DNA of 64,000 bases from Mucilaginibacter phyllosphaerae (GTDB lineage Bacteria > Bacteroidota > Bacteroidia > Sphingobacteriales > Sphingobacteriaceae): the NCBI RefSeq assembly GCF_004378255.1, contig NZ_SNQG01000001.1, positions 496,001-560,000 on the forward strand, in the 5' to 3' direction. The notes under the pieces were generated by a model. It searched no databases, had not been told where the DNA came from, and was given only the letters and a program-made list of their open reading frames with translations. Below, in pieces: positions 18,524-31,316 of the stretch; position 1 is the stretch's first letter; each line of letters begins with the position of its first letter. The position numbers were made by a program, and so were the translations under genes.

Positions 18524-19090
18524 ATTTTTACTCTGCAGATCGGTATCTGCTAATTTGTTTTATTATATACTAAATTTTGCCCGCATAGTTTTTGTTATAA
18601 AACTTAAATGATTGCGGATCATAAACAGGCATGGTTGTTTTTAACAGACTAAGCTTAAACCAAAGGCTTAAATATATTAATCAATTCTTAATAATTATTG
18701 AATACTTGCTTTGTACAGACTGCTTATTTAAATTTTATTTATTGGTATTACAAAGGAAACGTACCGCCGCCAACAATACTTTTGCGTTATTGGCTAATTA
18801 TTATGCGATATTGTAATTAAGAATATATGCTATATCATCTGCAGGCATAAAACACATAATATTATGTTATTATCATCCATAAATTTACGGCAAGGCAACC
18901 CTTTTTAATTAATTATAAGCTACAAATACCATCTTAAAAGGCAAGATATGTAGTTGGAATGTTAAAAATTGTAAAATTACCCACACGCCTTTTGCATGGC
19001 ATTCATTAGTTACTATATTTATCTGATAGACGCTATTGATAGAACTATTTTGGCCTCAAAAGCGTTATCTTATCAAATCACAATTTGAAC
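18524..19090. other. 567-bp AT-rich divergent intergenic region
   Basis: There is no credible gene here: the short frames have no conserved composition. It must hold the promoter of the dehydratase operon (minus) and of the secreted papain-like gene (plus). The only distinct element I recognise is copy 2 of the 22-nt motif at 18799-18820. No strict TAnnTTTG element was found on the strand reading into either gene; TATTTTG at 19047-19053 in front of the plus gene is a near match with one base missing. Confidence 0.6.
18799..18820. promoter_or_regulatory. Operator-like motif, copy 2
   Basis: This is the second copy of the motif found at 11325-11346 (20/22 identical, same orientation). It lies 276 bp upstream of the dehydratase start and 271 bp upstream of the divergent plus-strand gene. 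The shared site links the two minus-strand fucose operons as one regulon, probably under the AraC regulator at 11419-12288. The long distance to the dehydratase start suggests a long leader or a distant activator site. Confidence 0.5.
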
Positions 19091-20233
19091 ATGAAATACA
19101 CCGGTCGGCATTTGTGGTTGAGGGCGATACTTACTGTTTTACTGTTGGGTGGCTATGTTGTGGCAAATGCCCAGCTATCGGCATCTATGCCTTATAAAAC
19201 CAACTACCGCGATTCTTTACTACATGTATCACCATTAGATAACGGAGAGCATCGTTTAGATTTTGCACTGCCCGTAACCACCGGTATTTTTGATGATGAG
19301 AACGATAACTCCCTGCAAAAAACCATTTCGTTAAACCTGGGTAAATCGCAGGAGCGCAAACAGTTAATGAGTTATTTAAAACAGCTGGAACTGGGTAATA
19401 ATATAGCCGAGAATGAAAAGAACAACAAGGCGTTATACCGTTTTGCCAATTTATTTGCCCGGCTAAAGCTATATCCGCTGGCCATGAAATGTTTTTTTAA
19501 AACCATACAGCGCGAGAATCAAAAAGCCCGAAACAACACCGGCCAAACAGACAATAACGACATGGCGATGGATGAACTGGCCATCAGTAATAAAGATGAT
19601 TCGTTAGTTAATGCGCAGGCCGAGCATATAAAAAAGGGCAAAAGCAAACACACCAACTATAACCGGATCGCCGCTACATTTAACGATCATAAACAAACGG
19701 TTGCCTATGCCCTGCTTTTTCATGTAAAGCAGCCGGTATCCGGCAAATCAAAAGTGTTTGTATTTAGCAATACCGGGCATACTTTTATTACGCTGATAAA
19801 ATATAATGCCGACTCTACCTATGTTTCCTGCTCTTTCGGGTTTTATCCAAAAAAAGAAAAAATTCTGTTTGCCACCCCGTGGGATCCGGCGTCGGAGGGG
19901 GAGCTTAAAGATGACGCTACCCACCAGTGGGATGAGGTAGTGGGTAAATTCATATCCAAAAAGAGTTTTGAAAAAATATTGGCCCTTACCAAAAAATATA
20001 ACGAACTGGATTACCACCTAAGCAATAACAACTGTACAGATTTTTGCCTGCAGGCAGCCAGCATGGCCGGTTTAAACATTAGTAACACCAAAGCAAAATG
20101 GCCATTAGGCTATGGCAGTAACCCCGGTACAACAGGCCAAAGCCTTTTAGATGGCACCTATAAAAATACCGATCAGCAACCGGCTGCAAATGTTTTCCGT
20201 GGTTTAAATATCCAGCCAGAAACCGTTAAATAA
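19091..20233 (+). CDS. Secreted protein with permuted papain-like (NlpC/P60-type) hydrolase features, function unknown
   Basis: The 380-residue protein starts at the ATG at 19091 (MKYTGRHLWLRAILTVLLLGGYVVANAQ gives a clean signal peptide); a TTG six bases upstream is less likely. Residues about 90-200 are a charged, helical, lysine-rich linker. The C-terminal part has GHTFITLIKY (about residues 233-242) followed some 80 residues later by NNNCTDFCLQAASMAGL. A His-first, Cys-later order with these surroundings recalls circularly permuted NlpC/P60 or YiiX-like papain folds, whose Cys/His pair hydrolyses amide or ester bonds. This is a structural guess; I do not recognise a named family. It is convergent with the ThuA-like gene: its stop at 20231-20233 abuts the ThuA stop at 20234. 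Confidence 0.6.
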   Translation: MKYTGRHLWLRAILTVLLLGGYVVANAQLSASMPYKTNYRDSLLHVSPLDNGEHRLDFALPVTTGIFDDENDNSLQKTISLNLGKSQERKQLMSYLKQLELGNNIAENEKNNKALYRFANLFARLKLYPLAMKCFFKTIQRENQKARNNTGQTDNNDMAMDELAISNKDDSLVNAQAEHIKKGKSKHTNYNRIAATFNDHKQTVAYALLFHVKQPVSGKSKVFVFSNTGHTFITLIKYNADSTYVSCSFGFYPKKEKILFATPWDPASEGELKDDATHQWDEVVGKFISKKSFEKILALTKKYNELDYHLSNNNCTDFCLQAASMAGLNISNTKAKWPLGYGSNPGTTGQSLLDGTYKNTDQQPAANVFRGLNIQPETVK

Positions 20234-20997: not shown

Positions 20998-22404
20998 TTA
21001 AAATATCCCCAGGAATTTTTTGCGCTTTTTCCTGATGGGTTTAGCTTTAATGATGGCCGAATCTACCGTGGCCTTTATGGCCCGGTTGGCAGCCGCCTTT
21101 TTTGCGGCCATAATTTTCCTGTTAACCCGCATTACGCTATCATAATTATAGGGCCTGGCCATAAATGGCGGCTTAAAATAGTCGGCCTGGTTTACATAAA
21201 CTGCCTTTACATTACCCGGCTGTTTAACATTAAACCAGGCATACAAAAACAGGCCGGCAAATATTATCCCGGCCAATACAATCACAGTAAGTGCCTTTTT
21301 GGGGATAAACACCAGTTTGTTATTGCGCTCATAAATACCTTTAGCTTCGTTAAAATTAGCGCCCGTTTCGTTAGCGTAATGCTTTAAGGCTAATAATTGC
21401 TGCTCTTTTTTAAGCTCGTCCTGCTGGTACTGTTTTACCATTCCTGCAAGGCGCTCGTTCTCTGCCTGTATGGCTGCGGTGCTTACCCTGCCATCTGCAG
21501 ACAGGCTGCCGTTGATAATAGCCTCGTGCAGTTCCATGCCGCTTTTAAAACGGGCATCGGGTGTTTTTTGCAGGCATTTATCAATTACATCCAGCAGCCA
21601 TTGCGGTACCTGCAGTTCTTGTGTTTGCTTCAGCGTTGTCCAGCTATCCGGTAAACTTTTCTTTCTTGCTTCGCGCAGATCCGGAACGGGCGCTTCCATG
21701 TGGGCCAGCATAATGGCATTGCGGCCGGTTTCGCCATTGCCTGTAAGCGGGAAGGGTACCTGCCCGGTTAGTAACTCGTAAAGAATGATGCCATAGCTGT
21801 ACACATCTGTTTGCAGATACATGGCGCCATCGTGCTGCTCGGGCGCCATAAATTCTATAGCCCCGGCATGGCGAATGCTGCTTCTGCGCTCTTCTTCGCT
21901 CATGATGGCCAGGCCAAAATCCAGCAGTACATAATTACCCGTGTGGATATTATATTTTACATTATTACTTTTAATATCCCCATGTTTTACACCCACCTTA
22001 TGGCAATGCGCCAGGGCGCTTGCCAGCTGATCGGCCACGCGGATGGCCTCTTTCAGCATAAAGATCTTTTCGTGCGGGGGCTGCAATAGTTCGCAAAGAT
22101 CAGGGCCTTCTATATACTCCATCTCAATGTAGGGAAGCGAACCGCTCTCGGTAATGCCCGAGCTTAAGATCTTTACCACATTGGGGTTAGGCTCTTCGTT
22201 TACCTTTTGCAGTTTGGCAACTTCGTTACTAAAGTTGCGGAAGTTTTTATCATCCTCGCTTTCGGAATGGATAGGTGTTGGCAGCAGCTTTACAGCCGTA
22301 AGCACAGGCCCCATACGGCGGCCCTTATATACCGACCCCTGCCCGCCGGTGCGCAGCGCACCCAAATTTTCCAAACCCTCCGTTATCGTAAAAACCTTAC
22401 TCAT
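20998..22404 (-). CDS. Membrane-anchored Ser/Thr protein kinase A
   Basis: The 468-residue protein has an N-terminal Hanks-type kinase domain (about residues 10-285). It shows a Gly-rich loop GGQGSVYKG, the ATP Lys in TAVKLLP near residue 37, catalytic HGDIKSNN near 140, DFG in LLDFGLAIM near 161 and EFMAPEQ. HGD instead of HRD makes it a non-RD kinase. A juxtamembrane coiled segment follows (about 310-360), then one transmembrane helix (VIVLAGIIFAGLFLYAWF, about 372-389) and a basic C-terminal tail of about 75 residues. It has no PASTA repeats, so it cannot bind muropeptides that way. The first 8 bp overlap the FHA gene. It is paralogous to the kinase at 29946-31316; their kinase domains are nearly identical over long stretches. 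Likely partner: the PP2C phosphatase and FHA proteins of this cluster. Confidence 0.92.
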   Translation of the reverse strand: MSKVFTITEGLENLGALRTGGQGSVYKGRRMGPVLTAVKLLPTPIHSESEDDKNFRNFSNEVAKLQKVNEEPNPNVVKILSSGITESGSLPYIEMEYIEGPDLCELLQPPHEKIFMLKEAIRVADQLASALAHCHKVGVKHGDIKSNNVKYNIHTGNYVLLDFGLAIMSEEERRSSIRHAGAIEFMAPEQHDGAMYLQTDVYSYGIILYELLTGQVPFPLTGNGETGRNAIMLAHMEAPVPDLREARKKSLPDSWTTLKQTQELQVPQWLLDVIDKCLQKTPDARFKSGMELHEAIINGSLSADGRVSTAAIQAENERLAGMVKQYQQDELKKEQQLLALKHYANETGANFNEAKGIYERNNKLVFIPKKALTVIVLAGIIFAGLFLYAWFNVKQPGNVKAVYVNQADYFKPPFMARPYNYDSVMRVNRKIMAAKKAAANRAIKATVDSAIIKAKPIRKKRKKFLGIF

Positions 22405-23188
22405 TTGCTGCCGGTTGATAACTAAATTCTAATACTGCCGATTCGCCCAGGATGATCTGGTCGCCTTCCTGTAACTGGTGGCCTATATGGGTTGATGTCA
22501 ATTTAATGATCTCCTCGCTTTTTTCCGACCGGATCTTGATCTTATTACGTGGGGGTACACCCCCATCATCTGCATACAGCATAAACCTGCCTGCATCATT
22601 ATTCCACTCGATACGGGCATGCTGGCGGCTTACATACTTATTGCTTTCATTTTGGCTATCTGTAGGGAATGCAATATGGTTGGTACGGAAAAAACCATCA
22701 TCGCCCTGTGCCTTTTTATCTCTCCCGATATGGATCTTTTCGCTTTCTGATGACAGCTTATATTCTTTTTGATCGGTTTCGCCGCTTAAAGCCCTGATGT
22801 AGGCCGTGGCGCTTTGCTTAATAAAGTTCTTGCTGGTTTTAATAAAAAAGGCCGCATCCAGCTTGTTTGACCGGATCGCTTCCGGCGGAAATTCTTCGTT
22901 CAATACCACCTCCATCTGCCAGCTTTCGGGCAGATTTACGGCGTAGTCGTCGGCAATGCGCTGCACTTCATCCTTAAAAACCCCGGGTTCTTCCGTATAA
23001 ACAGCAGCCTCGTACATCGGGATATCAGATGCAGGGGCGTTTAAATAAAGATTAAGGCCTTTGATATTCCCCCCTTCGCCCCCCTCGGCTTTTTGCAGTT
23101 CCTGTTTGATGAATTGCAGCAATTCATAGCGGATGCTTTTTACATCTGCGGGCCGATCTTCCTTATCGCTTTTAAATAAATTGAACAT
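22397..23188 (-). CDS. FHA-domain phosphothreonine-binding protein
   Basis: The 263-residue cytoplasmic protein has an N-terminal alpha/beta region (about residues 1-130; LFKSDKEDRPADVKSIRYELLQFI...). This occupies the place that DUF3662 has in actinobacterial FhaA; similarity is only suggestive. The C-terminal FHA domain (about 150-258) has the key phosphopeptide-binding residues: IHIGRD near 155 and YVSRQHARIEW near 187. FHA domains bind phosphothreonine, so this protein probably reads phosphorylation by the kinase whose gene it overlaps by 8 bp. It lies 65 bp after the SEDS-PBP gene. Confidence 0.88.
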   Translation of the reverse strand: MFNLFKSDKEDRPADVKSIRYELLQFIKQELQKAEGGEGGNIKGLNLYLNAPASDIPMYEAAVYTEEPGVFKDEVQRIADDYAVNLPESWQMEVVLNEEFPPEAIRSNKLDAAFFIKTSKNFIKQSATAYIRALSGETDQKEYKLSSESEKIHIGRDKKAQGDDGFFRTNHIAFPTDSQNESNKYVSRQHARIEWNNDAGRFMLYADDGGVPPRNKIKIRSEKSEEIIKLTSTHIGHQLQEGDQIILGESAVLEFSYQPAANE

Positions 23189-23253: not shown

Positions 23254-26200
23254 TTATTCGCTTGTTTGCCCGTTAATACTTTTAATATATCCCTTCTCTT
23301 TCAGGAATGGTATAACATGGCTGGCAGCAAGCCTTACCGCATCTGATGAGCCCTTGGTAGACTCTATCCGCACACAAACCACCATATTTCCGCCCCCATT
23401 CGCCTTTGGCGCAAAAAAAACGTACCAGCCATCATTGATTTGCTGTTTTTTCCAGATCCGCTCGGGCGTGCCGGTTTTACCGGCCACTGCAAGGCCCAGT
23501 ATCCACTCTTTTGGAGCACTTTGTTCTATCATATATTGCCGAAGCAGATCTGCATACTTCGGATCATTGGTTAACCTGATACCCGGTTTAACACTGGTTA
23601 CCGAATCGGCCAGTTTTAGCACGTACCTGTTTGGCAAAATAGTGCCGCCATTGGCAATACCTGCCGCCATACGTGCCACAGATGCCGGTGTGGCTATCAG
23701 TTCGCCCTGCCCCCATGCCATACCCGAGATTCCCTTGGCACGGGTTTTACGGATATTATCGGGGTTATATTTTGGCTTGGTATTAAATTCTGTTTTGCGC
23801 CAAAACTCCCGCCATTTTTCTTCCTGTTTGGCGTTCTCTTTATCGCGCCCATAATAATAACCGCCTACGCCATGCAAAAACATACCTGTTTTTAAGTAAA
23901 CGGTTGCCATATCTTCCTGCAAATGCTGCTGATTGGCCAGTTTAATAAAATACACGTTGTTTGATTTGGCCACGGCACGCTCCAGTGTGATCAGCCCGGT
24001 TTCATCAGGCTCCAGCCCTTTGGTGCGAATGCGTTCGTAACTTGCCACGTTGTACTTTACATCTGCAGCCGCCAAACCCAATTTATTAAACGATGCGATA
24101 GAAGTAGCCAGCTTTGCCGTTGAACCCGGCTGTGTAGCCAGCGTAAAACCCAGATCCTGCGTGGTCATCCATTGCGAAAGCTGGTTTTGCTCGTAGTAGC
24201 TCATGGTTAGTTTTTCCCAATCGTGCACCGGGGGCAGCGGATAAACGGCCGAGGTGAGCACATCCCCTGTATTGGATTCCATTACTACTACCGATACGCG
24301 GTTATCCAGCAACGAGGTATCTGCGGCCATAGAATTTTGGATGCTGGTTTGCAGGCCGGCATCCATCGTTAGCTTTACATCGCGGTTACGGTTCTTAAAA
24401 GCTTCTACCTCTTTACTGTTAATACCGGCGATAAGCAAGGGGGCTATAGCGCTGTAATCTTTTTTTACCACCGTCATTTCCTTTACGCCACGTGCCAGAA
24501 AGCGGTCTTCCTGGTAGCGGTTTGCGGTAACGTTGTACTTTTCTGTAGGCATTTTAAAGCCGCGCAGTTCGGCCGCGTGTTCGTATTCGGCAAAGTAACC
24601 GTTGGGGCTGCCGTTAAAAACACCGGTATTGGCGTCGCCCGTCCAAAAAAACATTTGCGCATCAAAGGGGTAATACCTGTCCAGCCGCTTATGCATAGCC
24701 GAATCAATATTATAGTCCTGCGCGCCGGCAATTACCAGTTTGCGATGTTGTTTTTTGACGATATCGGGCTTGCTGGTTGCCAGTACCACGCCATCGCGAT
24801 CGTAGATATTACCGGCTTCTAAACGGTTCATTAATATAGCAATACGCGGGTTATAGCTAAACATACGTGCGCCGCTTTTGTCGGCAACTAAAGCGGGTTG
24901 CACCACCCATTTTTTGTTATTGAACAGGTAGCGCGATACGTTTACCGTTAGCAGCGTAACACCTACAAAAGCCGCTATCAAAGCAGGCACCAGGTTTTTA
25001 TCCTGCTGGCGCGACAAGTAGTTCATTTGCACCGGTGTACCCCTTACCAACGATGCCGACAGCAGGAACCCCGAGGCCAGCAAATTAGCGACCAAAGACG
25101 ACCCGCCATAACTTTGAAACGGCAGTGAAACGCCCGAAAGCGGCAATGCCCCGGTAGAGCCGCCTGCGATAAGCATAAATTGTACAAATGTTGATACCCC
25201 GATGCCGGCGCAGAGATAAAACAGAAATGGTGTGCCTGTTCGCCGGCCTATCAGGATAGAACGGTGCAGGTAAACCAGGAAAAGCAGAAAGATACACACG
25301 ATCCCCGTCCACCCGAATTCTTCGCCCATGGAGGGCAGGATCATATCCGTATGCGCCTCGGGGATGGTTTTGGCAAAGCCCTCGCCTACGCCCTGGCCGC
25401 TTACGCCGCCACTGCTCATGGCCCAAAGGCCGTTGGCTACCTGGTCGCCGCCATATACTTCATTGTTCCAGGCATCCTGCCAGATGGCTTTACGGTCTAC
25501 CAGCCGTTGTACCGGGCCGGGGAACAGCTTACCTAAATACGGGATCTGATCAATAGTTAAAAAAGCCGCCATAATGATGAGTACCATCATAGCCGACTCG
25601 CTGAGTTGCCTGCGCTTGAACAGCATAAAAAGAGCCGCAATAGCCGCAGTTATCAATGCCGATAGCCAAACGTTTTTGACCACCCATGATACGATGACGT
25701 AGAGCACCACCGCCCCTGCCATAAACATAAAATCGCCGCGGCAGAAGGAGAACAGCACGATAAACGTGAAACATATTACCATAGCCGGGCCCAGATCGCC
25801 CAGCAGCAGAAATAGCAGCAAGGTTACTAAAATGGCTATCAAAGCAAAAGAGAAGAACGACCAGCGTTTACTCCAGCTGGTATATTCGCTGATGAGTTTT
25901 TCGTTTGCGGCAAAAAAGCCCGCAAGGAAAAGGATCACCAAGTATTTTACAATTTCGCTGGGTTGAAAGCCGAAAAGGTTCACTTTAACACCGCTGCCTT
26001 CGGGGCCGGTGCCAAACTTAATGGTTAGGGCCAGCAGGGTTGCCGCCAATACCACCCAGGGCCAGCCGTTGGCCGCGTTGCGGTTATTTTTAAATACCAG
26101 CATGCGGTAGATCCACGAATCGGGCGTAAAGCGGCGCAGCTTTAATTGCAGCATTACCAGCATAGCTACCATACCAATACCCAGGTAAACCAGCATATCT

Positions 26201-27360
26201 TTAGCTAAAAATCTGTCGCGCAATGGGTCCTGCAAGCTCAACAGCGTTAAAAAAGACAGCCCCGCCAATATCATTACCACCGGTAAGATCAACTGATCTG
26301 ACGTGCTGAACTTCCACGACAGCAGAATGTGCACCAACAGGAACACGCCGATGAAGCAGCCGGATATCATAAGGAACCATTTGTTAAATTCTGCCGGGGT
26401 GCGGATGATGAGTGATCTCTCTTTTTTCAGGATGTTAAAATCCCGGGTAGAAAACAACCTGATGGTATGCGGAGCCTGGCTAAAATTTAAACTTACATCA
26501 TCATCCAGATTTTGTACCCCCTGCGATGCACCAAACTGATAACCGGGCTGCAGCGGCAATAATTTAAAGGCCTTCCCTTCGGGCAGGTTCTTAAATTCGG
26601 CAATACCCTGCTGATTGGTGCGGGCATAGGCCGTAAGTGTTTGCAGGCGTTTATGCCCGGCACTATCCGGCAGGTAAACTTTTTTGAAACCGTTGCCGCT
26701 TTCTGTAACGGGTTTCAGTTCGTCCAGTTCCTCGTCTGTAAATATACTATCCTGCGGCAGTATCATATCCATACGTACCAGCACCCCGGCAACCGGTTCC
26801 TTTTTATTGGTAACCACGCTACTGATGCTGTATTCGCCCATGGCCAGGTCGGTTATATTAGGCACACTAACCGGGCTGCTGCGCTCGCTTACAAACAAGG
26901 TGGAATCCTGGCCGGCATAGCCCAATAATGAGCGCGAGGCACTTACGCGCGCCTTAAAAGATTCGCCGCCTTTTTCAAAGGCTTCATCAGCAGCAATAAA
27001 ATATTTGCGTTTATTCAGCTCGCCTATGTTATCAATTTTTTCGCCGGTGCCTATGTTTCCGGCAACGGTTTGGGTTATCAGGTTGATATCGCGCTTATCC
27101 TCAAAATAGTAGCCTTTGGTGAGCAGGGTTTTCAATTGCCCGGCAGGGTCCTTATCATTCAGGTTGATCATGGTGCCATCCTGCAGGCGCTTATCCACAT
27201 CGGCAAAACGGATCTGCAGCACCGAGTACAGCCTGAAAAATAAAAACACGAACAGAACGCTGATCAGCAGCAGGAAAACACGTTCCTTCCAGCGGGTTTC
27301 AACAGGTATCTTATCTGGCTCCATTTGGCTTGGCGGGGGTTGATATTCTGGTATCTGCAT
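23254..27360 (-). CDS. Fused SEDS (RodA/FtsW) glycosyltransferase and class B penicillin-binding transpeptidase
   Basis: The 1368-residue membrane protein unites two enzymes normally encoded separately. A cytoplasmic tail and one TM (about residues 28-46) lead to an extracytoplasmic region (about 47-325) with a Cna-B-like beta-sandwich. A SEDS domain of about ten TMs follows (about 330-795); it keeps the signature GQGVGEGFAKTIPEAHTDMI, in which Asp672 corresponds to the catalytic Asp of RodA. One more TM (about 806-828) leads to a PBP part starting at AGNIYDRDGVVLATS. The transpeptidase motifs are complete: SxxK at Ser1080-Lys1083 (PGSTAKLA), SxN at Ser1133-Asn1135, KTG at 1295-1297. It should polymerise lipid II and crosslink the strands. 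Its start overlaps the PP2C gene by 50 bp. Context is the kinase/FHA/PP2C cluster. Domain assignments are firm; borders are approximate. Confidence 0.93.
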   Translation of the reverse strand: MQIPEYQPPPSQMEPDKIPVETRWKERVFLLLISVLFVFLFFRLYSVLQIRFADVDKRLQDGTMINLNDKDPAGQLKTLLTKGYYFEDKRDINLITQTVAGNIGTGEKIDNIGELNKRKYFIAADEAFEKGGESFKARVSASRSLLGYAGQDSTLFVSERSSPVSVPNITDLAMGEYSISSVVTNKKEPVAGVLVRMDMILPQDSIFTDEELDELKPVTESGNGFKKVYLPDSAGHKRLQTLTAYARTNQQGIAEFKNLPEGKAFKLLPLQPGYQFGASQGVQNLDDDVSLNFSQAPHTIRLFSTRDFNILKKERSLIIRTPAEFNKWFLMISGCFIGVFLLVHILLSWKFSTSDQLILPVVMILAGLSFLTLLSLQDPLRDRFLAKDMLVYLGIGMVAMLVMLQLKLRRFTPDSWIYRMLVFKNNRNAANGWPWVVLAATLLALTIKFGTGPEGSGVKVNLFGFQPSEIVKYLVILFLAGFFAANEKLISEYTSWSKRWSFFSFALIAILVTLLLFLLLGDLGPAMVICFTFIVLFSFCRGDFMFMAGAVVLYVIVSWVVKNVWLSALITAAIAALFMLFKRRQLSESAMMVLIIMAAFLTIDQIPYLGKLFPGPVQRLVDRKAIWQDAWNNEVYGGDQVANGLWAMSSGGVSGQGVGEGFAKTIPEAHTDMILPSMGEEFGWTGIVCIFLLFLVYLHRSILIGRRTGTPFLFYLCAGIGVSTFVQFMLIAGGSTGALPLSGVSLPFQSYGGSSLVANLLASGFLLSASLVRGTPVQMNYLSRQQDKNLVPALIAAFVGVTLLTVNVSRYLFNNKKWVVQPALVADKSGARMFSYNPRIAILMNRLEAGNIYDRDGVVLATSKPDIVKKQHRKLVIAGAQDYNIDSAMHKRLDRYYPFDAQMFFWTGDANTGVFNGSPNGYFAEYEHAAELRGFKMPTEKYNVTANRYQEDRFLARGVKEMTVVKKDYSAIAPLLIAGINSKEVEAFKNRNRDVKLTMDAGLQTSIQNSMAADTSLLDNRVSVVVMESNTGDVLTSAVYPLPPVHDWEKLTMSYYEQNQLSQWMTTQDLGFTLATQPGSTAKLATSIASFNKLGLAAADVKYNVASYERIRTKGLEPDETGLITLERAVAKSNNVYFIKLANQQHLQEDMATVYLKTGMFLHGVGGYYYGRDKENAKQEEKWREFWRKTEFNTKPKYNPDNIRKTRAKGISGMAWGQGELIATPASVARMAAGIANGGTILPNRYVLKLADSVTSVKPGIRLTNDPKYADLLRQYMIEQSAPKEWILGLAVAGKTGTPERIWKKQQINDGWYVFFAPKANGGGNMVVCVRIESTKGSSDAVRLAASHVIPFLKEKGYIKSINGQTSE

Positions 27361-28771
27361 GCAGGCGGGTAGCCAAGAAATCGGCTGTTACCGGCTTGCC
27401 TGCAGGCAGGTTATATGCCCTTTGGATAGGCAGCTTACAGTTGATAAATTGCGTATTTTTGAGCAACAAACTGTTATTTTGCAGATCGATAGCCACATCA
27501 AAATCTTTAAACGTTATATTATTTAGCCCCACTACCTTGCTATCCGTACCCGGTGATAATGCCGGGCCATGATAGGCGGTATCGCGCTGTAAAACAAGGC
27601 TGCCCTTTATGCGGATATACAACGTATCCTGATCGATATGCAGGGTATCTGTTAATATTACAGGGCTTTTAAAGGAGGTATCTGATAAAACAAGCGTATC
27701 GCCCTTAAAGGCATCAATGGCATCCTGTAATTTTACCTCATCTGCATTACGCAGTTTTTGGGCTGATGATGAGGCTGATGCAACCGGCTTCCCTCCCGAT
27801 CGCTTTGACAGATACAGCCAGATGCTGGTGGCCAAAAACACCAGGCATAATATGCCCAATATCGGGGTTAGTAAGTTACTTTTTTGTTGAGCCATCGGTG
27901 GTTCATCTTGTGGTGTGCGTTCGGTTTTGGTTTGCGGGCGCACAGGCGTTATCCCGTCGTCGTGTTCATCATTCCTTTTTACCGGGGCTGATGCCGGCAT
28001 GGTAGCCTGTGGTTTATGCTGCTGCTTATCGTTTTTAACCAATACCACGGTTACATTATCCCGGCCGCCGTTATCATTAGCGGTGTTGATCAGTTGGATG
28101 GCCTTTTCGGGCAAGGGAATATCCTGGGTAATAATATCCAGAATGCCGCTTTTATCTACCATATCTGTTAAGCCATCGCTGCAAAGCAGCAGCATATCAC
28201 CCGGTAAAAATGGCGACTGCCCCGTTTCTATAAAGCTTTCGTCGGTATCTATCTGGCTGGTAAAGCCCAGCGCCTTATTGATCTCGTTACGTTTAGGGTG
28301 GTTCATGGCGGCGGTTTCGGTCAGCCTGCCGCTATCCTCTAAAAAGCCCACAAACGAATGGTCTTTAGAAATCTTTACCAGTGTACTATCGCGCAGCAGA
28401 TACAAACGGGTATCGCCCACATGGGCATAAAAAAACTGGTTATTCTCTATATCCACCAAAGCCATGGTAGCTACACAGGCCATGCTTTCCAGCTCTTTAT
28501 CGCTTTGCTTTTTAGCAGAGATCTGTTCACTGGCCAGTTTAAAGGCATCTATCATCCCGGGGATGATCTCGCCCTGCAGGCCGCTTAAACGATCAATAAA
28601 AACATCTTTGGCTATGGCCGCTGCCACTTCGCCGCCGTTATAGCCGCCCACCCCATCAATTACGGCGGCAAGTACCATGCGGTTACCCATCACCTTTTGG
28701 GTAATAAAGGTATCCTCGTTATTGGTACGTACCTTGCCTGTATCGGTTAATCCAACATAGTTTTCAGCCAT
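27311..28771 (-). CDS. PP2C-family Ser/Thr phosphatase with membrane anchor and extracytoplasmic domain
   Basis: The start at 28771 (MAENYVGLTDTGKVRTNNEDTF) is preferred over one nine codons upstream because PP2C domains begin this way. The 486-residue protein has a PP2C domain (about residues 1-240) with metal-binding motifs RTNNEDT, AVIDGVGGYNGGE, HVGDTRLYLL, CSDGLTDM and NGGRDNVTVVLV. A Pro/Thr/Gln-rich linker follows, then one TM (ILGILCLVFLATSIWLYL, about 304-321) and an extracytoplasmic tail of about 165 residues with repeated beta-strand patterns (ITFKDFDVAIDLQNNSLLLKN...) resembling a small beta-helix. It would remove phosphates placed by the two kinases. The 3' end overlaps the SEDS-PBP start by 50 bp, so translation is probably coupled. 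The arrangement parallels PstP of mycobacteria. Confidence 0.9.
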   Translation of the reverse strand: MAENYVGLTDTGKVRTNNEDTFITQKVMGNRMVLAAVIDGVGGYNGGEVAAAIAKDVFIDRLSGLQGEIIPGMIDAFKLASEQISAKKQSDKELESMACVATMALVDIENNQFFYAHVGDTRLYLLRDSTLVKISKDHSFVGFLEDSGRLTETAAMNHPKRNEINKALGFTSQIDTDESFIETGQSPFLPGDMLLLCSDGLTDMVDKSGILDIITQDIPLPEKAIQLINTANDNGGRDNVTVVLVKNDKQQHKPQATMPASAPVKRNDEHDDGITPVRPQTKTERTPQDEPPMAQQKSNLLTPILGILCLVFLATSIWLYLSKRSGGKPVASASSSAQKLRNADEVKLQDAIDAFKGDTLVLSDTSFKSPVILTDTLHIDQDTLYIRIKGSLVLQRDTAYHGPALSPGTDSKVVGLNNITFKDFDVAIDLQNNSLLLKNTQFINCKLPIQRAYNLPAGKPVTADFLATRLHADTRISTPAKPNGAR

Positions 28772-28867
28772 TGCGTTTACCGGATTTTTTAATATCAATA
28801 AAATGAGTTATCAGCAGGCAAAAACCAATCCCTAATAACCCGATAGATAAGATCTGCGACATACCCT

Positions 28868-29812
28868 TTATGCTTTAAACAGGTTTAAACCAATAATACC
28901 ATTCAGCAACATGCGCGAGTTTATGGGCAGCTCTACCCATTTTGGTGCGTTAATGTCGCTGCGCTCTATCACCACCTCATTCAGTGTGGTTATTTCGCCG
29001 AATGATGCCAGGTAAAACTTACCATCGGCCTTGTTATATTTGATCTGTAAATGCGGTGCGTTCACCCAATCGCTTGGGATGGTGAAGATGTTTGACCCCT
29101 CGCGCGTTTCTTCGCTGCCCGATATAATGATCTCTTCATCCTTCATCAGATACTCCACCTTTTTACCCGCAAATTGCTGATCGGGGATGATGGTTTCCAG
29201 CCTGGCTATCTGGCTTTGCACTTTGGCAGCCTTTTCTTCCTGCGGCTCCAGTTCCTCTTCGTAAGGGATCTCAAAATACCCTTCGCTATAGTAAGTAAAG
29301 CCTTTTAAAGCTTCCTGGCTTACATCAAAGGTTTGGGCGATACCTGTTTGGCGGGGGATGAACGTTACCCGTAAGTTTTGCTCCTTTTGATTATTATCGG
29401 GCAGTAGCTTACCTATAAAACCTTTATCGCCGCGGGCATAATCCGGATGCGATACCAAACGGAACACCCATTTAGAACCCGAGGGCTTTACGGTTTTGCC
29501 TGCTGCGCGATACTCTTTCAGTATCTCGTAAAACTTGGTAACCGTTTCCTGCACTATCAGCCCGAAGATGCCTTGTTTATCGGCCACAAACTCCCGGTAA
29601 TCTTCGGCATTAAAGCTGATGATGAACTCGTGGTAAAATACCACCCGGTCGGCAAAGGACAGGTCTTTGATAGAACCGCGAAACTTATCTACAATGTAAC
29701 TGTAAACCGTATCGGGCGTTAAGGCTTTGGCCTTAGCCTTTTCGGTGCTTTCGTTGGTTAAAAACCAATCCTGTATGCCTATGCGCTGCCAAAAATTTGG
29801 TGTAGAAGCCAT
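28868..29812 (-). CDS. Uncharacterised cytoplasmic protein with degenerate FHA-like C-terminus
   Basis: The 314-residue protein has no signal peptide or TM. Residues 1-190 are mixed alpha/beta (FADRVVFYHEFIISFNAEDYREFV..., WVFRLVSHPDYARGDKGFIGKLLP) and unknown to me. Residues about 225-314 resemble an FHA beta-sandwich (EIIISGS...NIFTIPSDWVNAPHLQIKYN...FYLASFGEITTLNEVVI...MLLNGIIGLNLF). In it the His of the SxxH motif is kept (NAPH), but the Ser is Asn and the Gly-Arg pair is missing, so phosphothreonine binding is doubtful. It lies between kinase B and the PP2C gene (69 bp before PP2C). By position it would be the second FHA-type member of the cluster. The FHA-like assignment is my reading of the pattern and not a confirmed match. 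Confidence 0.6.
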   Translation of the reverse strand: MASTPNFWQRIGIQDWFLTNESTEKAKAKALTPDTVYSYIVDKFRGSIKDLSFADRVVFYHEFIISFNAEDYREFVADKQGIFGLIVQETVTKFYEILKEYRAAGKTVKPSGSKWVFRLVSHPDYARGDKGFIGKLLPDNNQKEQNLRVTFIPRQTGIAQTFDVSQEALKGFTYYSEGYFEIPYEEELEPQEEKAAKVQSQIARLETIIPDQQFAGKKVEYLMKDEEIIISGSEETREGSNIFTIPSDWVNAPHLQIKYNKADGKFYLASFGEITTLNEVVIERSDINAPKWVELPINSRMLLNGIIGLNLFKA

Positions 29813-29945: not shown

Positions 29946-31316
29946 CTACTGTGTGGTAGTTATGGTGTCGGGCTCTGTTTTTAGGGTATCGGGGGCCGGT
30001 TTGGGTATCACCACCGGCTTTTTAACAACTGTGTCTTTTGTTACCGGGGTGCTATCTGCCGCCGCGTCATCAGCCGGATATTTGGCGCCAAAATTAACGC
30101 CGGTATCTGCCTTGTTGCTATTGCTGTTTTGCAACGAATCCTGATTTACAGGTTTTGTCGGCGATTCTTTTTTTAACAATGTGGAGTAAACCGAAAAGCC
30201 CATAAACAGCACCAGCAGCGTCATCACCGTATAATAATAAGGTTTTGACAGCGATACGCGCGACCCATCCTCCGCCGGCTGTTCTGCAAATATTTGCTTT
30301 GGCGGCAGGCTGCTTTGCTGGTATTGCATCAGTTGGTTGTGCAGGCGTTCGTTCTCGCTGCGCAGGGCGGCATTGCTTAAACCACCGGCAATATCAAAAC
30401 TATCCGAGGCGGTAATACTGCCCCTTACAATGGCATCATGCAGCTGCGTGCCGTTGCTAAACCTATCCTTAGGTGCCTTTTGCAGGCATTTTTCTATCAG
30501 CTTTAACACCCATTGCGGTACCTGCATCTCGTGGCCCTGTTTCTCGGCATCCCAGGCGGCGGGTAAAGCCTTGCGGCGGGCATTCAGCAAATCGGGCACG
30601 GGGGTTTCTATATGGGCCAGCATCACCGCGTTACGGCCTGCATCGCCGCCGCCATGCAGCGGGAACGGCACCTCGCCGGTTAACAGTTCATACAAAATGA
30701 TACCGTAGCTGTAAATATCGGTCTCCATCAATATCTTACCCTCGTGCTGCTCGGGCGCCATAAATTCTATAGCCCCGGCATGGCGGATGCTGGTACGGCG
30801 CTGCTCTTCGCTCATGATGGCCAGCCCAAAATCAAGCAGTACATAATTGCCGGTGTGGATATTATATTTTACGTTATTGCTTTTCACATCGCCATGCTTT
30901 ACGCCAACCTTATGGCAGTGTGCCAGGGCGCTTGCCAGTTGGTCGGCCACGCGGATAACCTCTTTCAGCATAAAGATCTTTTCGTAAGGCGGTTTCAGCA
31001 GTTCGCAAAGGTCGGGTCCCTCGATGTATTCCATCTCGATATAAGGGAACGAGCCGCTATCGGTAATACCCGAGCTTAAGATCTTCACCACGTTAGGATT
31101 GGGCTGCTCGTTCACCTTTTGAAGCTTGGTTACCTCATTCCTGAAATTGCGGAAATTCCTGTCATCCTCGCTTTCGGTATGTATGGGGGTTGGCAGCAGT
31201 TTTATTGCGGTATATACCGGCCCCATACGGCGGCCTTTATATACCGAGCCCTGGCCGCCGGTGCTCATGGCGCCTAAGTTTTGAAGTCCCTCTGTTATTG
31301 TAAATACTTTACTCAT
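29946..31316 (-). CDS. Membrane-anchored Ser/Thr protein kinase B, paralogue of kinase A
   Basis: The 456-residue protein has a Hanks-type kinase domain (about residues 10-285) almost collinear with kinase A: GGQGSVYKG, YTAIKLLP, HGDVKSNNVKYN, LLDFGLAIM, EFMAPEQHEG. It is also a non-RD kinase (HGD). A short coiled region precedes one TM helix (VMTLLVLFMGFSVYSTLL, about 361-378). The extracytoplasmic tail is rich in Pro, Thr, Asp and Lys (VTKDTVVKKPVVIPKPAPDTL) and differs entirely from that of kinase A, so the paralogues probably sense different things. There are no PASTA repeats. It appears to be the first gene of the cluster, 133 bp ahead of the FHA-like gene. Gene duplication followed by tail replacement is the simplest explanation. 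Confidence 0.92.
   Translation of the reverse strand: MSKVFTITEGLQNLGAMSTGGQGSVYKGRRMGPVYTAIKLLPTPIHTESEDDRNFRNFRNEVTKLQKVNEQPNPNVVKILSSGITDSGSFPYIEMEYIEGPDLCELLKPPYEKIFMLKEVIRVADQLASALAHCHKVGVKHGDVKSNNVKYNIHTGNYVLLDFGLAIMSEEQRRTSIRHAGAIEFMAPEQHEGKILMETDIYSYGIILYELLTGEVPFPLHGGGDAGRNAVMLAHIETPVPDLLNARRKALPAAWDAEKQGHEMQVPQWVLKLIEKCLQKAPKDRFSNGTQLHDAIVRGSITASDSFDIAGGLSNAALRSENERLHNQLMQYQQSSLPPKQIFAEQPAEDGSRVSLSKPYYYTVMTLLVLFMGFSVYSTLLKKESPTKPVNQDSLQNSNSNKADTGVNFGAKYPADDAAADSTPVTKDTVVKKPVVIPKPAPDTLKTEPDTITTTQ

Follow-up and report, generated by a model that had tools for sequence, protein, structure and literature searches.

The window analysed here is a stretch of 64,000 nucleotides of Mucilaginibacter phyllosphaerae DNA (contig NZ_SNQG01000001.1, positions 496,001 to 560,000). 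On its minus strand it encodes a polypeptide of 1368 amino acid residues that unites a SEDS polymerase with a class B penicillin-binding protein (PBP), among genes for Ser/Thr kinases, a PP2C phosphatase and FHA proteins. The fusion is likely a dedicated peptidoglycan synthase, the third of its cell, in which a RodA-type polymerase with actinobacterial ancestry shares one chain with a class B PBP, under the control of the surrounding phospho-signalling genes.

In the list of open reading frames (ORFs) of the window, the fusion runs from 27360 to 23254 without an internal stop, and the same span on the plus strand is riddled with stops. The original prediction, which gave no strand, had placed both enzymes in one chain, and the domain assignments agree. 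Pfam PF01098 (SEDS) covers residues 358-770 with 157 bits (curated cut-off 26.4) and PF00905 (transpeptidase) residues 1023-1340 with 78.9 bits (cut-off 22.1); no other Pfam domain matched at E ≤ 0.01. The absence of a class A (GT51) polymerase domain at this threshold places the protein with the class B PBPs. A PBP dimerisation or pedestal domain had no Pfam match in residues 811-1022, a stretch that is itself present and conserved. The fusion is composed as follows:

23254..27360, minus strand: SEDS-PBP fusion gene, 1368 residues as listed; probable true start at 27324 (1356 residues)
27217..27279, minus strand: first transmembrane segment (TM1), about residues 28-48, presumably running from inside to outside (hydropathy)
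26386..27216, minus strand: added extracytoplasmic domain, about residues 49-325, with a helical half (about 48-166) and a beta sandwich (about 169-299) (AlphaFold2, Foldseek, VIA)
25051..26289, minus strand: SEDS polymerase domain, residues 358-770 (PF01098, 157 bits)
25345..25347, minus strand: codon of the catalytic Asp672 (conserved in 78/78 copies, aligned to RodA D262)
25000..25035, minus strand: SEDS-PBP joint, presumably cytoplasmic, about residues 776-787 (hydropathy)
24931..24999, minus strand: transmembrane segment preceding the PBP part, about residues 788-810 (hydropathy)
23341..24294, minus strand: class B PBP transpeptidase, residues 1023-1340, with STAK, SNN and KTG (PF00905, 78.9 bits)

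All catalytic residues named in the original prediction (Asp672, Ser1080, Lys1083, Ser1133, Asn1135, Lys1295 and Gly1297) were located at these positions, and they are conserved almost without exception in an alignment of 78 fusion ORFs of at least 1250 residues. Asp672, the pair Ser1080 and Lys1083 and the pair Ser1133 and Asn1135 occur in 78/78 copies, Lys1295 and Gly1297 in 77/78 with one gap. Asp672 aligns with D262 of E. coli RodA, and an Asp stands at this site in 35/35 rows of the SEDS alignment. It also aligns with the Asp of the FtsW among the solved-structure sequences, which we take to be of the P. aeruginosa type. The active sites are kept in distant relatives too. By its domain and catalytic Asp the first half is a SEDS polymerase, with lipid II polymerisation as its predicted activity, and by PF00905 with the SxxK, SxN and KTG motifs the second half is a class B PBP. 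Translation probably starts at residue 13 (position 27324), which would give 1356 residues, since residues 3, 6 and 11 fall in gap columns in 74-76 of the 78 aligned copies, several close relatives are 1356 residues long, and a start as listed would run 50 bp into the PP2C gene, compared with 14 bp for a start at residue 13.

Hydropathy places transmembrane segments at about residues 23-55 and 324-355 with a soluble stretch in between, in line with the extracytoplasmic N-terminal domain that had been proposed. Its AlphaFold2 model (predicted local distance difference test score, pLDDT, 87.3) consists of a helical half followed by a beta sandwich resembling transthyretin/CnaB or carboxypeptidase regulatory domains (Z up to 8.2; Foldseek, VIA). 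Pfam CarboxypepD_reg was detected at E ≤ 1 in 29/32 members (best E-value 7.6e-7) and not in the window copy. A known sensor fold was considered and not adopted: the sandwich is a common one that does not indicate a function, and those searches barely covered the helical half. The domain may be the regulatory lid suggested in the original prediction, a sensor or a spacer.

The fusion is a real, unbroken and conserved protein. Full-length copies with 67-100% identity occur in 10/61 genomes of the family, the window's own counted. A scan of public genome contigs confirmed 104 loci, of which 80 were kept as the basis of the locus counts given below; they span Mucilaginibacter, Pedobacter, Paradesertivirga, Daejeonella, Segetibacter, Ferruginibacter, Flaviaesturariibacter and other genera. 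Only one of the 80 has an in-frame stop (L067, a metagenome-assembled genome), the other short copies ending at contig ends. The frame or sequencing error that had been named among the observations to overturn the prediction, and an assembly artefact likewise, are thus ruled out by intact orthologues. In the exceptional Segetibacter locus (L067:8190-12479) the stop, a mutation or an assembly error, parts most of the N-terminal domain from the SEDS-PBP portion. Among 296 genomes sampled from the phylum, the N-domain model matched 12, in 11 of them within ORFs of 1222-1389 residues; the twelfth match (G166) is weak and lies in a 710-residue ORF. A plasmid collection yielded one further full-length fusion, 40% identical, on a Spirosoma oryzicola plasmid (L102, NZ_CP089545.1), where it stands in a cassette of the order FHA-PP2C-kinase-kinase-fusion-FHA. 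This cassette is located near a two-component system. Pedobacter panaciterrae O48 carries two cassette copies on one contig (L066, L071), and another genome (L207:5165-9085; G187:C87) encodes two different fusions of 1222 and about 1310 residues. Measured as branch lengths in the SEDS tree, the window copy and that of G092, from another family, are 0.43 changes per site apart, far below the distance of about 1.2 between their RodA proteins, which suggests transfer of the fusion between families. With respect to G303, the fusion is no closer than RodA.

The fusion is an additional, third SEDS-PBP synthase rather than the RodA-PBP2 or FtsW-FtsI pair of the cell. Five SEDS matches in the host genome correspond to three genes: FtsW (on C10), RodA (on C6, near 911 kb) and the fusion. 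Six transpeptidases are encoded, including FtsI and a PBP2 adjoining RodA. The comparison with separate rodA/pbp2 and ftsW/ftsI genes, proposed earlier as a check, found them in the host and also in 4/4 other carriers examined (G303, G072, G089, G092). These pairs have the same enzyme domains and motifs, with Asp672 aligned to RodA D262, but they are encoded by separate genes, their SEDS proteins belong to another clade, and they coexist with the fusion in one genome. The canonical equivalogs were rejected: the fusion scores 154.5 bits against the NCBIfam cut-off of 337.5 for ftsW and 132.4 against 336.7 for rodA_shape, and its SEDS part forms its own clade in the trees. With normal RodA and FtsW present in the host, deletion of the fusion gene is likely to be tolerated.

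The neighbouring genes lie on the same strand in the order kinase, X314, PP2C, fusion, FHA protein, kinase:

29946..31316, minus strand: Ser/Thr kinase 1, without PASTA
28868..29812, minus strand: X314, 314 residues, no Pfam match, FHA fold in the C-terminal half (AlphaFold2, Foldseek, VIA)
27311..28798, minus strand: PP2C phosphatase, 495 residues, overlapping the fusion start
22397..23188, minus strand: FHA protein, 263 residues, with conserved G155-R156, S187-R188-x-H190 and N215
20998..22404, minus strand: Ser/Thr kinase 2, without PASTA, overlapping the FHA gene by 8 bp

The core order X314-PP2C-fusion-FHA is found in 76/80 loci, the remaining four being three short contigs and the Segetibacter locus with the in-frame stop. 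A kinase is encoded on at least one side of the fusion in 76/80 loci, and the distance from the PP2C stop to the fusion start is between -14 and +5 bp in 69 of the 79 loci that have both genes. X314 matched eight genomes of the phylum sample; seven are fusion carriers by the N-domain model, and the eighth, G234, also has a fusion, which falls below the threshold of that model. The AlphaFold2 model of X314 (pLDDT 74.1) shows an FHA fold in the C-terminal half. Foldseek matches include the FHA domain of FhaA (2lc1, E-value 1.4e-5), and VIA aligned 101 residues to the FHA fold with a Z of 14.5 and a root-mean-square deviation of 1.9 Å. This fold rules out that X314 is an unrelated protein, even if Pfam FHA was found in only 2/33 members at E ≤ 1. 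The set of residues that we take to contact phosphothreonine (GR, SxxH, N) is not kept in X314, where His254 and Asn278 are conserved and the Arg and Ser are not; the downstream FHA protein retains GR, SRxH and N. One of 36 cassette kinases scanned bears an FHA domain as well. Beyond the cassette, the plus strand encodes a 382-residue protein (19085-20233) with a weak match, below cut-off, to the PPPDE peptidase family.

In a SEDS tree of 35 rows, chosen by us and sampling few phyla, 11 fusions, three actinobacterial RodA proteins and a Monoglobus SEDS protein, encoded in an FHA-SEDS-PBP cluster, lie on one side of a branch with 100/99 support, and canonical RodA and FtsW, the host's own among them, on the other. 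Approximately unbiased (AU) tests rejected the grouping of the fusions with Bacteroidota RodA (p=0.005), with all canonical RodA (p=0.021) and with Bacteroidota FtsW (p=0.037), and did not reject fusions plus actinobacterial RodA without Monoglobus (p=0.149). A second set of 29 rows, in which the stem was shortened and Monoglobus left out, again joined the fusions and actinobacterial RodA at 100/99 and rejected Bacteroidota RodA and FtsW (p=0.00013 and 0.0055). A shortened loop before the catalytic Asp is common to the fusions, actinobacterial RodA and Monoglobus; Listeria rows 3-5 are short there too. Judged by these trees, the SEDS part belongs with the actinobacterial RodA proteins and does not derive from the host's rodA; for this half, an origin from the host's own rodA or ftsW was rejected by the AU tests.

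Distant relatives within the phylum extend the picture. In L124 the gene directly upstream of the fusion encodes FHA together with FhaA_N (27.4 bits, cut-off 25), and FhaA_N was also detected, below cut-off, in L206 and in the FHA gene upstream of PP2C in L126. In one genome (G234; L206:5262-9413) phosphatase, polymerase and transpeptidase are a single ORF of 1384 residues without a stop, composed of PP2C (23-204), one transmembrane segment, the helical half of the N-terminal domain, SEDS (504-834) and transpeptidase (1073-1372). Compared with L126, where PP2C is a separate protein, the PP2C part shows 53% identity and the remainder, set against the L126 fusion, 64%; AAHTD, STFK, SSN and KTG are intact in the triple chain. 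Because PP2C is fused in this species and adjacent in others, the triple fusion speaks for a functional connection of phosphatase and synthase. The chain lacks the beta sandwich and keeps the helical half, so that any universal role of the N-terminal domain would have to reside in the latter. In both L126 and L206 a gene for a LysM and SLT lytic transglycosylase adjoins the cassette (L126:5072-7339, L206:1949-4150), and the FHA protein downstream of the fusion has a Swt1-like HEPN domain (L126:13435-14802, L206:9479-10750).

In the proposed mechanism, with both enzymes fixed at a ratio of 1:1, the SEDS part would polymerise lipid II and the tethered PBP would cross-link the resulting strand. 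Both kinases and the PP2C, all anchored in the membrane, would set the phosphorylation state of their targets, which may be the kinases and the phosphatase themselves, the FHA proteins or cytoplasmic parts of the synthase such as the short SEDS-PBP joint. Position 783 in the joint is Thr or Ser in 66/78 copies and is only a candidate phosphosite; no conserved phosphosite was found in the N-terminal tail among the 78 copies. FHA proteins docked on phosphothreonine would place or switch the synthase, and the periplasmic N-terminal domain may signal the state of wall or envelope straight to the polymerase. In actinobacterial PknB, such sensing is carried out by the PASTA domains. A wider interpretation, which we offer tentatively and think rather less probable than its opposite, is that of a self-contained, signal-gated synthase. 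Sensing would have shifted from the PASTA domains of a kinase to the N-terminal domain of the synthase, phosphorylation and wall state would be integrated in one polypeptide, and phosphatase, polymerase and cross-linker would be coupled so tightly that in one lineage they became the single 1384-residue protein; the cassette, found also on a plasmid, would travel in Bacteroidota as a third growth mode.

Several observations weigh against the proposed phospho-regulated synthase of actinobacterial lineage. The window SEDS is 25-28% identical to actinobacterial RodA, barely more than the 19-26% to others, and the stem of the fusions is long (about one change per site), making long-branch attraction possible. 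The transpeptidase half is compatible with different groupings in AU tests (fusion with PbpA and Monoglobus, p=0.45; fusion with PBP2, p=0.34), and its best tree places it with FtsI at 60/46. Pfam did not find in the fusion the PBP_dimer_2 domain present in Tsukamurella PbpA. PASTA was absent from 36/36 cassette kinases, with Tsukamurella PknB positive as a control. FhaA_N was undetected in the FHA proteins of the window, and comparing profiles with FhaA gave no significant match; hence this domain is not shown for the FHA protein or X314. Lastly, phosphorylation, docking, sensing and enzymatic activity, like the growth phase of use, are predictions.

Part of this evidence would fit a convergent assembly, in which a separate event, unconnected with Actinobacteria, brought a SEDS protein and a PBP of uncertain origin together with genes for kinase, PP2C and FHA proteins, and the likeness of the clusters reflects the same functional need. 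The ambiguous transpeptidase trees, the long stem, the PASTA-free kinases and the N-terminal parts of the cassette FHA proteins, which are not alignable to FhaA, are what such an origin would leave. It is nonetheless unlikely, as the SEDS clade recurs at 100/99 in two taxon sets, the loop near the Asp is shared, FhaA_N stands beside the fusion in a distant relative, and the order PP2C-SEDS-PBP is the same.

The fused chain might also be cut after synthesis, for instance in the SEDS-PBP joint, leaving an ordinary two-protein complex whose fusion only equalises expression. Cleavage would suit a short joint that presumably lies in the cytoplasm, and engineered RodA-PBP2 fusions are partly cut in their linker according to the part of PMC6207328 that describes them. 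We regard cleavage as improbable: over residues 751-850, with the joint and the adjoining transmembrane region, conservation is high (mean identity to the window copy 77-81%), and the 13 genomes with matches showed no version in separate parts.

An ordinary duplicate, with the host's rodA and pbp2 copied and fused into a redundant elongation synthase beside accidental kinase neighbours, is suggested by the adjacency of these two genes in the host and by pbp2_mrdA as the top NCBIfam match of the transpeptidase, far below cut-off. Such an origin is very improbable in view of the rejected grouping with Bacteroidota RodA, the order SEDS-PBP in the fusion as opposed to PBP2 then RodA in the host, and the retention of the cassette in 76/80 loci. 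That the fusion is enzymatically dead and acts as a sensor or regulator of other synthases would suit an extra copy of patchy occurrence (10/61 family genomes; N-domain in fusion-length ORFs of 11/296 phylum genomes), but can hardly be reconciled with two active sites kept in 77-78/78 copies and in distant relatives.

The coupling of SEDS and PBP enzymes and its control by Ser/Thr kinases are open questions; most work on them has dealt with mycobacteria or with systems of two separate proteins. The phospho-regulated third synthase proposed here would offer a natural 1:1 tie of both enzymes, with kinases, phosphatase and FHA readers encoded alongside and, in one genome, the phosphatase in the same chain; with a gene that is likely removable, coupling and phospho-control both become testable in soil bacteria that are harmless.

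The fusion as such is not new, since the relevant passage of PMC10449877 mentions natural SEDS-PBP fusions in a single ORF, citing the Rhodococcus RHA1 genome paper. These share with the present fusion the one ORF for both enzymes, and the passage mentions neither a kinase, phosphatase and FHA cassette nor an N-terminal domain, nor any Bacteroidota. In addition to this mention in print, the original prediction, which rightly recognised the fused chain, its motifs and the added domain, had missed the status as a third synthase, the cassette and the lineage of the SEDS part. The titles and abstract openings returned by searches of the open-licence literature describe neither the Bacteroidota cassette nor its connection with the actinobacterial operon, nor a chain of PP2C, SEDS and PBP. 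Engineered SEDS-linker-PBP constructs, reported as active in the relevant sections of PMC6207328 and PMC10449877, likewise place SEDS first and PBP second in one chain; as described there, they differ in their artificial linker and in having neither a sensor-like domain nor phospho-signalling partners.

The closest known system is the actinobacterial operon fhaA-fhaB-pstP-rodA-pbpA-pknA-pknB, whose role in growth and division is treated in passages of PMC6554272 and PMC11898655. Both systems comprise two FHA proteins, a PP2C, a SEDS protein, a class B PBP and two Ser/Thr kinases, and they share the order PP2C-SEDS-PBP and one SEDS clade. Among the records fetched, the Nocardia and Nonomuraea clusters read PP2C-SEDS-PBP-kinase-kinase and that of Tsukamurella FhaA-FHA-(gap)-SEDS-PBP-kinase-PknB. 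In contrast to the phylum-wide actinobacterial set, the cassette is an accessory one, its PBP lineage does not clearly join PbpA, and an FHA gene stands between PBP and kinase. Because it has no PASTA kinase, its rodA and pbpA are fused and a periplasmic domain has been added, we read the cassette, on the strength of these gene comparisons, as a counterpart, in Bacteroidota, of the actinobacterial operon for wall growth and not as a member of it.

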